In this document: piece after piece, positions 12,612-19,955 of the stretch
Layout of the letters: each line of letters starts with the position of its first letter
How positions within the stretch are numbered: position 1 is the first letter of the stretch
Assembly (NCBI GenBank): GCA_015069015.1
Contig: SVJK01000011.1
Coordinates: 1 to 50,888, forward strand
From: Oscillospiraceae bacterium
GTDB lineage: Bacteria; Bacillota; Clostridia; UMGS1810
Reading direction: 5' to 3'
Length of the DNA: 50,888 nt
The notes under the pieces: model-generated
The model's database searches: none
Told to the model about the DNA's origin: nothing
Seen by the model: the letters and a program-made list of their open reading frames with translations, nothing else
Translations under genes and position numbers: made by a program

Positions 12612-12683
12612 TTTAGATTCTTTGCTAAAATGAGATTGAATATATGTACATTTATTGTGCTTAAAACTTGGAGGATAAAAGAA

Positions 12684-13571
12684 ATGAAAAAGATGCTCAC
12701 GATGGTTCTTGTAATGCTTATTGTTGTGATGAGTTTGTGTGTATTCACATCTTGTAAAAATACAGACGAAGAGGAAAGTTCCAAAAAAAGCTTTTCAAGT
12801 CAGGACGTTTCAGAAAAAGAAGAATCGGAGAAAGACGTTTCAAAGAGAAAAAGTAAAAAAAGAAAAACTGAAAGCAAAACAGTTTCCAAAGAAAGGGCAG
12901 AAAAAGGGAACAGAGAAGAAAATCCGGTCCTGAAAGTTGCCACAAATGCAGAATTCCCTCCTTTTGAATATATGGAAAACGGAGAGATTGTCGGTGCAGA
13001 AATAGAAATGGCACAGTTGATTGCAGAAAAAATAGGGGCAGAATTAGAGTTTGTGAATATGGAGTTTGACTCTGTGGTTTCCGATGTGGTGTCAGGGAAG
13101 TGTGACATTGCCATTTCTGCCATTACGATAACTGATTACAGAAAAGAGATAGCGGAAGTCAGTGTACCCTATTATGTTGTATCACAGGCAATCATTGTTA
13201 TGGAAAACAGCGAAATTAAAGTTGCAGCTGACCTTAAAGGAAAAACAATTTCCTGCCAGGAAGGTACAGCAGGAGAACAGTTCATTTTAGATAACAAGTA
13301 TGACATTCAGTCATACAAAACAGGTGCAGATGCAATCGCAGCACTCACAGCAGGCAAAGTTGATGCAGTTGTAATTGACGAAGCAGTTGCAAGAGCACTT
13401 TCTGCTGAAAACCGGGGTACAAAAGTTCTTGATGAAATGATTATGACGGAAGAATATGGAGTTGTCGTTGGCAAAGGCAATAACAAACTGTTGCGCCAAA
13501 TCAATAAAGCAATTACGGAATTAAAACAAGAAGGCCGTCTTGATGAAATATTTAAAAAATACGGGCTTTAA
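12684..13571 (+). CDS. Polar amino-acid ABC transporter substrate-binding lipoprotein (copy 1, long charged linker)
   Basis: 295 residues. A lipoprotein signal ends in F-T-S-C (Cys24). Residues 25-80 are an unusual, low-complexity Ser/Lys/Glu linker with coiled-coil-like charge runs. From about 82 the family-3 (glutamine/cystine-type) binding protein begins: V-A-T-N-A-E-F-P-P-F-E-Y, E-N-G-E-I-V-G-A-E-I-E-M-A, K-C-D-I-A-I-S-A-I-T-I-T, and G-K-V-D-A-V-V-I-D-E. It probably captures a polar amino acid for the permease and ATPase encoded downstream. GGAGG at 12670-12674 precedes ATG 12684. Bases 13171-13433 are almost identical to the same segment of the next gene, while the flanks have diverged, which suggests gene conversion. 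A separate promoter precedes copy 2, so the two may be expressed differently. Confidence 0.9.
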   Translation: MKKMLTMVLVMLIVVMSLCVFTSCKNTDEEESSKKSFSSQDVSEKEESEKDVSKRKSKKRKTESKTVSKERAEKGNREENPVLKVATNAEFPPFEYMENGEIVGAEIEMAQLIAEKIGAELEFVNMEFDSVVSDVVSGKCDIAISAITITDYRKEIAEVSVPYYVVSQAIIVMENSEIKVAADLKGKTISCQEGTAGEQFILDNKYDIQSYKTGADAIAALTAGKVDAVVIDEAVARALSAENRGTKVLDEMIMTEEYGVVVGKGNNKLLRQINKAITELKQEGRLDEIFKKYGL

Positions 13572-13750: not shown

Positions 13751-13816
13751 ACCCTATACATAGAGAGTCCCGTAATGTTGACGGGAATAAAGATTAATTG
13801 TTTGGAGGAAGAAACA

Positions 13817-14629
13817 ATGAAAAAAATGGTAAAATTAGTATCAGTAATTCTTGCACTTGTGATGTGCGTAGGAGTTTTTGCATCATGTTCAAAGAAAGAC
13901 GATAATGTTCTCACAATGGCAACAAATGCGGAATTCCCCCCGTTTGAATATCTTGAAAACGGCGAAATGGTAGGCGCAGAAATCGACATGGCATATGCGA
14001 TTGCTGAAAAACTCGGCATGGAACTTGAAATTTCCAACATTGACTTTGATGCTGCTCTTGCAGGTCCTGCTACAGGCAAATATGATGTTGCAATTTCCGG
14101 TATTACTGCAAATGACGAGAGAAGAAAGAACATGAACTTCTCAGATCCTTATTATGTTGCATCACAGGCAATCATTGTTATGGAAAACAGCGAAATTAAA
14201 GTTGCAGCTGACCTTAAAGGAAAAACAATTTCCTGCCAGGAAGGAACAACAGGAGAACAGTTCATTTTAGATAACAAGTATGACATTCAGTCATACAAAA
14301 CAGGTGCAGATGCAATCGCAGCACTCACAGCAGGCAAAGTTGATGCAGTTGTAATTGACGATGCAGTTGCAAGAGCACTTTCTGCTGAAAACCAGGGTAC
14401 AAAAGTTCTTGAAGAACCCCTTACAAAGGAAGAATATGCAATTGCCCTCAAGCTTGGCAATGACGAGCTTACAGAAAAAATCAATAAAGCTCTTGCAGAA
14501 CTCAAAGCAGAAGGTAAACTTGTAGAAATCTTTTCAAAATACAACCTTCCCATGGATGGGGAAGTAGTTGTTGCAGAAGATGCCGAAGCTACATCAGATG
14601 CAGTTACATCAGCAGCTGAAGCAGAGTAA
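13817..14629 (+). CDS. Polar amino-acid ABC transporter substrate-binding lipoprotein (copy 2)
   Basis: 270 residues with a lipoprotein signal ending in F-A-S-C (Cys24) and a very short linker, then the same family-3 binding-protein fold as copy 1: T-N-A-E-F-P-P-F-E-Y, G-A-E-I-D-M-A-Y-A-I-A, I-S-G-I-T-A-N-D-E-R-R. The C-terminus carries an Ala/Glu-rich tail after K-Y-N-L that copy 1 lacks. ATG 13817 follows TTGGAGGAAG; the frame is open from 13775. As the gene directly before the permease and ATPase, with its own promoter, it is the likely main receptor of the importer. The ligand (glutamine, cystine, arginine or similar) cannot be told from sequence alone. Confidence 0.92.
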   Translation: MKKMVKLVSVILALVMCVGVFASCSKKDDNVLTMATNAEFPPFEYLENGEMVGAEIDMAYAIAEKLGMELEISNIDFDAALAGPATGKYDVAISGITANDERRKNMNFSDPYYVASQAIIVMENSEIKVAADLKGKTISCQEGTTGEQFILDNKYDIQSYKTGADAIAALTAGKVDAVVIDDAVARALSAENQGTKVLEEPLTKEEYAIALKLGNDELTEKINKALAELKAEGKLVEIFSKYNLPMDGEVVVAEDAEATSDAVTSAAEAE

Positions 14630-17673: not shown

Positions 17674-17813
17674 GTGATTCCCAAGGGAATCACAAAATGA
17701 AATGTGCCTGTGACACATGATATGCCTTTGGCATGATATAACAACTTCGCTGTAATTATATGAATTCCTGCGGAATTCATTATGGAAAAAACTTGCCACT
17801 GGCAAGTATTTCC
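17674..17813. repeat. Hairpin array, left half (linkers of GAT/GAA type)
   Basis: Consecutive small hairpins: GTGATTCCC/GGGAATCAC (17674-17693), an imperfect ATGTG/CACAT, ATGCC/GGCAT, an imperfect TATAA/TTATA with loop, ATGAATTCC/GGAATTCAT, and ACTTGCC/GGCAAGT (17791-17807) inside GGAAA/TTTCC. Neighbouring hairpins are joined by CAT-GAT-AT(G). The framework is the reverse complement of the linkers in the array at 18367-18451. No coding potential. Confidence 0.8.
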
Positions 17814-17841
17814 TAATTTTTTCACAAAATTAAAATTGTCA

Positions 17842-17870
17842 TTGATAAAAAGGTATTTATGTGATATAAT
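17842..17870 (+). promoter_or_regulatory. Strong promoter of a structured RNA
   Basis: TTGATA (17842-17847), a 17-base spacer and TATAAT (17865-17870), with TGA before the -10 (extended -10). The predicted start, G17877, is exactly the first paired base of the RNA described next. Confidence 0.8.
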
Positions 17871-17876
17871 AGTCAT

Positions 17877-18080
17877 GCCAAATATAGCTTAATAAAAAAT
17901 AAGTAGGAGTATTTTATTTTTAGGAATAATATATTCTCTGTTTGCTACACTAATTTTGAGTTTGTAAAAAATGCAGATTCCAATAATTGGTGTAGTATTA
18001 TAAATCCTACAACTTAAGCTATGTTTGGCGACTGGCGGAGTTTGCGTTTTTATGCGTCTGCTTCGGCGGGCGCATTTTTT
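17877..18080 (+). ncRNA. Rod-shaped structured RNA with UUCG-capped terminator (unidentified)
   Basis: Predicted transcript of about 204 nt. The 5' end GCCAAATATAGCTTAA (17877-17892) pairs with TTAAGCTATGTTTGGC (18014-18029), 16 bp with one G-U. Inside are GTAGGA/TCCTAC (17903-17908 with 18005-18010) and CTACACTAATT/AATTGGTGTAG (17945-17955 with 17985-17995). A small GAATA/TATTC hairpin (17924-17936) lies on the 5' side of an asymmetric internal bubble. A terminator TGCGTCTGC-TTCG-GCGGGCGCA plus six T follows (18052-18080). A rod closed by its two ends with a central bubble recalls 6S RNA, but I see no decisive 6S sequence signature. It could instead be a regulatory leader for the 68-codon gene that starts 18 bases later. 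Confidence 0.7.
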
Positions 18081-18097
18081 AATTTGGAGGCAAATCT

Positions 18098-18304
18098 ATG
18101 GAAGAATATATAAGACGATATTGTGAAAAAAATAGAACTTTGTATGAGCTTGATATAAACGATTGTGCACTGATTATTGTAAATGATCTTATGAATTATG
18201 AAGTCCCAGATGAAAAAATTATATCTCTTCTTTCATCATATTTTGTTCCGCTTAAACAAGAGGCGGGTATTTTAAAGAAAAAATATGGAAAAGGCGAAAA
18301 ATAG
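18098..18304 (+). CDS. Small protein of 68 residues, unrecognised
   Basis: GGAGG (18086-18090) lies seven bases before ATG 18098, and an intrinsic terminator follows the stop, so this looks like a real small gene. The protein has no signal peptide or membrane segment. It begins M-E-E-Y-I-R-R-Y-C-E-K, has a mixed helical middle (D-C-A-L-I-I-V-N-D-L-M-N-Y-E-V) and ends in a basic helix (L-K-K-K-Y-G-K-G-E-K). I do not recognise a family. It sits between the terminator of the structured RNA and the right half of the hairpin array, inside the cassette 17674-18451, so its production may depend on read-through of the RNA's terminator. Confidence 0.6.
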   Translation: MEEYIRRYCEKNRTLYELDINDCALIIVNDLMNYEVPDEKIISLLSSYFVPLKQEAGILKKKYGKGEK

Positions 18305-18328
18305 ATTGTTTAAAACTTGTATGTTATA

Positions 18329-18361
18329 AAAAAAGCCCGGCACCAGTGGTGCGGGCTTTTT
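18329..18361 (+). terminator. Intrinsic terminator after the 68-codon gene
   Basis: AAAAGCCCGGCACC pairs with GGTGCGGGCTTTT around an AGT loop, with one bulged base. Flanking A and T runs make it usable from both sides, including for the minus-strand oxidoreductase gene. Confidence 0.85.
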
Positions 18362-18366
18362 CAATA

Positions 18367-18451
18367 ATGTCAGCTTTGCTGACATATCATGCTGCGAAGC
18401 AGTATTTCATGAAACTGGAGGTTTCATATCATGCGTCTTAAGACGCATTTC
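18367..18451. repeat. Hairpin array, right half (linkers of ATC/TTC type)
   Basis: Four hairpins: ATGTCAGC/GCTGACAT (18367-18385), ATGCTGC/GCAGTAT (18389-18405), ATGAAAC/GTTTCAT (18409-18427) and the 18-bp palindrome ATGCGTCTTAAGACGCAT (18431-18448). They are joined by ATC or TTC. The linkers are the reverse complement of the GAT/GAA linkers in the left half, so the halves behave as imperfect inverted repeats with different stems. Confidence 0.85.
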
Positions 18452-18465
18452 ATCTATATATGTAA

Positions 18466-19593: not shown

Positions 19594-19652
19594 GAGTGCA
19601 AAAATCCTTTTTTGAATTTGAGAAATTGGAAAACGATGTAATTGGAGTTTAG

Positions 19653-19916
19653 CGGTGAGTTTGTTTTGCAAACTCACCGAATGAAATGTGCCTTTCGGCA
19701 CATGAAATGGCTTCGCCATGAAATGACAACGCAGTTGTCATGATATGAATTCCTTTGGAATTCATTAAAGTTAAAACTCGCCAAAGCGAGTTTTTTCCAT
19801 AATGTCTGCATTGCAGACATTTCATGCTGCGAAGCAGTATTTCATGAAACCGAAGGTTTCATTTCATGCACCATCAGGTGCATTTCATTCTCACTGATTG
19901 AAAATCAATCAGTGAG
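19653..19916. repeat. Complete 11-hairpin array with palindromic linker framework
   Basis: Eleven hairpins follow one another: CGGTGAGTTTG/CAAACTCACCG (19653-19679), ATGTGCC (19686-19703), ATGGC (19707-19719), ATGACAAC (19723-19741), ATGAATTCC (19745-19765), a central AAAACTCGC/GCGAGTTTT (19773-19794), then AATGTCTGC (19801-19821), ATGCTGC with one G-U (19824-19840), ATGAAACC (19844-19862), ATGCACC (19866-19883) and CTCACTGATTGA/TCAATCAGTGAG (19890-19916). In the left half hairpins are joined by CAT-GAA-ATG or CAT-GAT-ATG; in the right half by CAT-TTC-ATG. The linkers are thus mirror-complementary about the centre, while the stem sequences all differ. Confidence 0.9.
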
Positions 19917-19955
19917 TTAAACTTCAATTTATCAACAGAATTTCGAGGTGTATAT

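Follow-up and report, generated by a model that had tools for sequence, protein, structure and literature searches.

Features of the locus

The window (the whole stretch of DNA analysed; 50,888 nucleotides, contig SVJK01000011.1 of an Oscillospiraceae bacterium) contains, between two half-arrays of hairpins, a promoter, a structured RNA, a terminator, a 68-codon open reading frame and a second terminator (Table 1). These elements, the flanking arrays included, had been named and placed by the initial annotation, and all were recovered; the folds exceed chance (z against dinucleotide shuffles: left arm −6.4; right arm −5.9; leader RNA −8.0; uninterrupted array at 19,653–19,916, −14.8). No tRNA or tmRNA was found in the window.

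Table 1: Features of the locus and of the related arrays (positions in the window; L numbers denote loci).
Feature	Position	Strand	Remarks
Left half-array	17,674–17,813	+	H1–H5 and central-type hairpin (17,784–17,813); GAA/GAT linkers; degenerate Gut-1-type repeat; no terminal inverted repeat
Promoter	17,842–17,870	+	−35 TTGATA, 17,842–17,847; extended −10 TGTGATATAAT, 17,860–17,870 (TATAAT, 17,865–17,870)
Attenuator leader RNA (probable), 204 nt	17,877–18,080	+	R1 model match 17,952–18,080, 109 bits
P1 closing stem, 5' strand	17,877–17,892	+	pairs with 18,014–18,029
Apical strand AAAAATGCAGATTCC	17,967–17,981	+	local pairing in apical hairpin 17,958–17,980, or long-range with 18,037–18,051
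P1 closing stem, 3' strand	18,014–18,029	+	pairs with 17,877–17,892
Antiterminator	18,035–18,067	+	GCGGAG.. with ..CTTCGGC of terminator 5' arm and loop
Long-range helix, 3' strand GGAGTTTGCGTTTTT	18,037–18,051	+	5' half doubles as antiterminator 5' strand
Intrinsic terminator, leader end	18,052–18,080	+	17 nt ahead of start codon
Ribosome-binding site GGAGG	18,086–18,090	+	
68-codon gene	18,098–18,304	+	three-helix protein; small family
Terminator of 68-codon gene	18,328–18,362	+	
Right half-array	18,367–18,455	−	H6–H9 (4 hairpins), ATC/TTC linkers; RF01706 match 18,379–18,455, minus strand
Intact reference array	19,639–19,931		TIR-like ends taattggagtttag / ttaaacttcaattta; H1–H5, central hairpin, H6–H10; Gut-1 match 19,814–19,890
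PF05635-side arrays with flipping linkers	L003, L004, L012, L018, L030, L040, L196, L197, L199, L201, L204, L205, L206, L209, L210, L211		

The promoter is conserved together with the RNA family (consensus of 75 members: TTGA.AAa, ca. 17 nt, TgTG.TATAAT); promoter, leader and terminator together take up less than 300 bp. Judged from the spacing, the 17 nt between the T-run and the start codon are too short for a promoter, and expression of the gene would therefore have to come by read-through. The 204-nt RNA and the 68-codon gene form one ordinary transcription unit and are not cargo of the arrays.

Paralogues of the 68-aa protein were found in this genus only; RNA of the same kind lies directly upstream of all paralogues read, except one truncated copy (L084). 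The protein has no relative among Pfam families, NCBIfam families or PDB entries, a fold search with the predicted model gave nothing at E 0.001, and a scan with the single protein found no relative. In L084 and L086 (G000 C46) the paralogue is apparently broken by an insertion and most of the leader RNA is gone; tandem copies of the leader RNA precede one gene in L143 (G000 C80), and RNA and gene together are duplicated in tandem in L141 (G000 C59).

Elsewhere in the window, two solute-binding proteins (12,630–13,571 and 13,775–14,629) are nearly identical over ca. 90 residues and different in the rest, which suggests gene conversion or a recent partial duplication.

Leader RNA: structure and covariation

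Three structures are backed by covariation. One is a long closing rod, another the long-range helix AAAAAUGC:GCGUUUUU, and the third the antiterminator/terminator pair. The sequence of the rod (P1) varies widely and its pairing is kept; a strand's own partner beats 98.6% of foreign partners. In the long-range helix the apical strand AAAAAUGC... pairs with ...GCRUUUUU directly before the terminator. Over 80 distinct sequences, 97.8% of the cells of long-range helix and terminator were paired (slid structures: 33–62%), and 177 cells carried double changes vs 38 in shuffles, figures to be read with the alignment in mind, which was fitted to the model and favours the model's own structure.

In the most frequent members the antiterminator is short, at 5–7 bp, and the convincing cases come mainly from deviant members. 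When all partners were swapped against all, foreign partners were as good in a fraction of 0.35–0.37; this comparison is weak because most members share the consensus, and the informative version is the one restricted to deviant members, in which the own partner beat both consensus combinations in 22 of 32. Compensated pairs include CAGAGUCAC:GUGGCUCUG (L127), UCAGAGC:GCUCUGA (L112) and AUAUGAGCU:AGUUCAUAU (L146). The antiterminator takes up sequence that also belongs to the terminator arm and to the long-range helix; since strands are shared, the structures exclude one another.

Leader RNA: distribution and downstream genes

A covariance model (R1) was built from 13 RNAs upstream of 68-aa paralogues. 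Within the order it had matches in 15 of the 16 genomes, with as many as 15 copies in one genome, and within the class Clostridia in 94 of 391 sampled genomes; in a phylum-wide sample of 399 genomes only the window's own genome matched. The exact motif was found in at least 119 named Clostridia contigs; the 80 matches listed comprise Clostridia MAGs and the isolate Pumilibacter intestinalis. A homologue lies on contig NZ_CALPCH010000010 of P. intestinalis CLA-AA-M10. There were 0 matches in viral contigs, and a phage origin of the RNA family was rejected on this ground. Sequence is conserved in at least 54 genera at the 5' end (GCCAAAC), in the loop UAAAAAUGC and at the 3' side (GGCGAC..GGAG).

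No family of Rfam 15 (4227 families, gathering score) covers the leader RNA at the window locus or at 20 other loci of the family, and in an E-value scan of the locus with Rfam the only leader matches were of chance level. Literature searches (Gut-1, PF05635 with repeats, DUF6809, the RNA) that stopped before the supplements of the 2021 survey of RNAs in the human microbiome (PMC8040213) yielded nothing beyond the 2010 description of Gut-1 and reviews of a general kind. Judged by its sequence matches, the RNA is a real, specific and widespread family of gut Clostridia.

Of 71 exact-motif loci, 64 have a following gene in the orientation of the RNA, vs 42 of 65 for the preceding gene. The distance from terminator to start codon is typically 16–30 nt (median 26 nt; lower quartile 19 nt), too small a spacing to hold a separate promoter for the downstream gene. 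The products of these genes are diverse, often a lipoprotein, a BspA-like or another envelope protein, with dozens of unrelated genes in other genera; an N-terminal hydrophobic signal was seen in 27 of 57 downstream proteins and a lipobox, by a crude rule, in 16 of 57. Domains named were BspA-type LRR, VWA, CHAP, Big_2, Band 7, zinc ribbons, AMP-binding, MazE/AbrB-like and DUF6809. A minority of RNA hits are without an intact gene downstream.

Probable attenuation and alternative identities of the RNA

A leader with a terminator directly before a same-strand gene was found, and with it a covarying, mutually exclusive antiterminator. RNA and 68-codon gene quite probably constitute one transcription unit under a cis-acting transcription attenuator, and the arrays a separate repeat family. 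The initial annotation had offered "regulatory module" as one of its readings, a term that fits the RNA and gene.

The proposed course is as follows. Transcription from the promoter (17,842–17,870) would yield the leader (17,877–18,080) in either of two exclusive folds. One is OFF: long-range pairing of the apical strand AAAAAUGCAGAUUCC (17,967–17,981) with GGAGUUUGCGUUUUU (18,037–18,051) would block the antiterminator; the terminator (18,052–18,080) would then form, and transcription would end 17 nt ahead of the gene. The other is ON: the apical strand would be kept in its local hairpin, GGAG would pair with CUUC of the terminator arm, and polymerase would read into the gene. We infer the default state, and likewise the tipping of the balance by a ligand, a protein or the state of the cell. 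In many uncultured Clostridia of the gut, envelope proteins and small proteins would be under the control of this leader family.

The RNA might instead act in trans, as a small RNA with its end at the terminator and the gene merely next to it; its own promoter and terminator, the stable fold and the several hits lacking an intact following gene agree with this. We regard it as unlikely, since the gene that follows shares its strand in the proportion given above, usually with its start codon 16–30 nt beyond the T-run, and a covarying antiterminator would be useless to a stand-alone small RNA.

A type III toxin–antitoxin system, in which the RNA would be the antitoxin to the 68-aa protein, is scarcely credible and was rejected, as the RNA is not tied to a single protein. 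The order of promoter, pseudoknot-capable RNA, terminator and small gene resembles that of ToxIN; the RNA, however, also precedes dozens of unrelated genes and contains no tandem repeat units, and the 68-aa three-helix model has no family match of the ToxN/CptN/TenpN kind. A further candidate, 6S RNA (RF00013), which is likewise rod-like, ca. 200 nt long and present in the same bacteria, was rejected as well: its covariance model matched neither at the RNA nor elsewhere in the window, and true 6S genes are located elsewhere in relatives.

Within the attenuator reading, the leader may be a riboswitch, in which a small ligand held by the rod and the apical loop would set the long-range helix; we put this a little short of an even chance. 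The conserved 5' end, loop and 3' motif in at least 54 genera, the riboswitch-like expression platform and the many copies over diverse genes, as with second-messenger switches, point to it. On the other side, most of the rod is conserved as pairing and not as sequence, so that an aptamer pocket is not evident, the downstream genes give no clue to a ligand, and a signal at the level of a protein or of the polymerase fits equally well. In the wider sense, the chances seem evenly balanced that the family is an orphan riboswitch or signal-responsive attenuator class, not described before. In that case it would be portable, promoter (with the extended −10) and switch forming one cassette, and a single signal would act through it on surface lipoproteins, on BspA-like proteins and on many small proteins of uncultured Clostridia of the gut.

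Hairpin arrays

Both arms belong to Gut-1-type hairpin repeats (Rfam RF01706), of which the source genome holds ca. 10 or more copies (intact size ca. 300 bp) and 18 matches to the Rfam covariance model. The right arm (50.4 bits) and the 19.6-kb array (58.9 bits) score above the curated family cut-off of 50 bits; the left arm is a sub-threshold match (30.6 bits at 17,682–17,744). Stems begin with ATG and end with CAT; they are joined by GAA/GAT in the left arm and by the reverse complement, TTC/ATC, in the right arm, and left and right stems differ, as the initial annotation had observed. Its assignment of the locus to the same repeat family as the array at 19,653–19,916 also holds: both are of Gut-1 type and share the hairpin order, which was fixed across the family in the Gut-1 matches of the genome that were read (H1–H5, a central A/T-flanked hairpin, H6–H10). 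Because left and right linkers are reverse complements, those across the centre of the intact array 19,653–19,916 can pair, and an alternative single branched fold is possible.

Intact copies (the 19.6-kb array, L034, L035, L037) end in the TIR-like taaattggagttta. At 17,674 and 18,455 terminal inverted repeats are absent, so that this copy lacks a MITE-like feature; its stem variants resemble those of the older copies L038 and L039. Half copies broken off near the central hairpin occur elsewhere too (L036, L043). In L031 and L039 the arrays adjoin gene 3' ends, and the stop codon of the gene apparently lies within the first hairpin. In L045 (850–1100) a copy is broken between H7 and H8 by ca. 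90 bp of another repeat, which is also present near L050 and L036.

Origin of the cassette

The initial annotation had read the locus as an array with a cargo in its middle. One part of this stands: the arms are complementary halves (H1–H5 and the central hairpin on one side, H6–H9 on the other), and a split copy is plausible. The other part does not, for RNA and gene are an independent unit that also occurs outside arrays. Most likely, the meeting of the two families broke an old array copy in the middle, a reading favoured over two half copies and drawn solely from the complementarity of the halves.

In the alternative, half arrays of independent origin lie on either side of the unit, each behind one of the two converging genes (a Fic gene and an oxidoreductase gene). 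L036 and L043 are likewise broken off near the central hairpin, and each arm reads GAA/GAT on the strand of its upstream gene; against it, the halves complement each other exactly, and no hairpin is missing or doubled where they meet. This alternative carries real weight and yet falls clearly short of an even chance.

A single mobile array element carrying RNA and gene as its cargo, i.e. the non-autonomous mobile or recombining unit with array ends that had been suggested, is very improbable. The arms are indeed complementary halves of one repeat type in opposed orientations, and the interruption of L045 by an insertion indicates that arrays can serve as landing sites. Against this, no central cargo was present in any other array locus read; the pair of RNA and 68-aa gene occurs outside arrays at least 7 times in the genus, and the RNA stands before dozens of unrelated genes; the 17,674 copy is without the terminal inverted repeats of intact copies; and other arrays near R1 RNAs adjoin and do not surround them. 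RNA units elsewhere are without arrays, except for a few beside one (L034/L146, L036/L144, L118). In L036/L144 and L034/L146 the R1 RNAs of the source genome lie ca. 220–430 bp from Gut-1 arrays.

The same site with and without cargo was looked for in relatives. In two sister species (87% identity) the flanks of the orthologues of the oxidoreductase gene contained neither array nor unit; no empty site was found there, the gene adjoining the array having other neighbours and rearranged flanks. Under the check set by the initial annotation, array and cargo do come apart, but as independent families and not as occupied and vacant forms of a single element. A chance meeting of two families of intergenic elements suffices to account for the cassette; a weak but true association of array and unit is possible.

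Arrays beyond the locus

In ten genomes 32 genes of PF05635 (23S_rRNA_IVP) scored above the family cut-off, and a Gut-1 match was located within 300 bp of 10 of them, always on the 5' side; arrays with other linkers (gctaaat, cttcat, catcat, tgaat, gatat) were found at 12 of 17 further PF05635 genes. The density of hairpins was 3.5 per 230 bp upstream of PF05635 genes vs 1.4 downstream and 0.8 in shuffles. Each of the linker words (tgaaat, gctaaat, cttcat, catcat, tgaat, gatat) flips to its reverse complement in mid-array, and these arrays stand directly 5' of the PF05635 genes, which encode four-helix bundles. The arrays of the window look like this PF05635-associated class minus the gene.

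In related genomes many Gut-1 arrays start at a terminator hairpin right behind a tRNA gene (L001, L002, L003, L018, L019, L020, L029), as if terminators or tRNA 3' ends were targets of array insertion.

Comparison with known systems

Terminator-type riboswitches and attenuators are familiar in Clostridia, e.g. the c-di-GMP and preQ1 classes. The leader family shares with them the promoter, the structured leader, the choice between antiterminator and terminator, the adjoining gene and a regulon rich in surface proteins; it differs in matching none of the 4227 Rfam families and in its long, sequence-variable rod. A putative switch present in ca. one quarter of the sampled Clostridia genomes, in up to 15 copies each and without an Rfam entry, points to a signalling regulon of the gut microbiome of which no description was found in the literature searched. 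With ToxIN the locus has in common the sequence of RNA, terminator and small protein, and it departs from that system in the many unrelated genes behind the RNA and in the lack of repeats and of a ToxN-like protein.

Like MITEs and REP/BIME sequences, the arrays are repeats that are palindromic, non-coding and dispersed; some have TIR-like ends, and several lie at the ends of contigs. Unlike those elements, they consist of ten different stems with conserved trinucleotide joins and a flip of orientation at the centre; no transposase was seen with them, and related arrays accompany a PF05635 gene.

Gut-1 stands in the records as a probable noncoding RNA, with environmental sequence from the gut as its only known source (Weinberg et al. 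2010, PMC2864571); its type in Rfam (noncoding RNA) is a prediction. Its three hairpins with UGAAAU linkers correspond to a slice of the arrays described here; the difference is that they are here part of a DNA repeat with palindromic linkers, ca. ten hairpins and TIR-like ends, and that related arrays stand 5' of PF05635 genes. This suggests that Gut-1, hitherto taken for a noncoding RNA, represents one segment of a DNA repeat made up of hairpins in array, and that this class would thereby be linked to PF05635, the protein family of the unexplained 23S rRNA intervening sequences.
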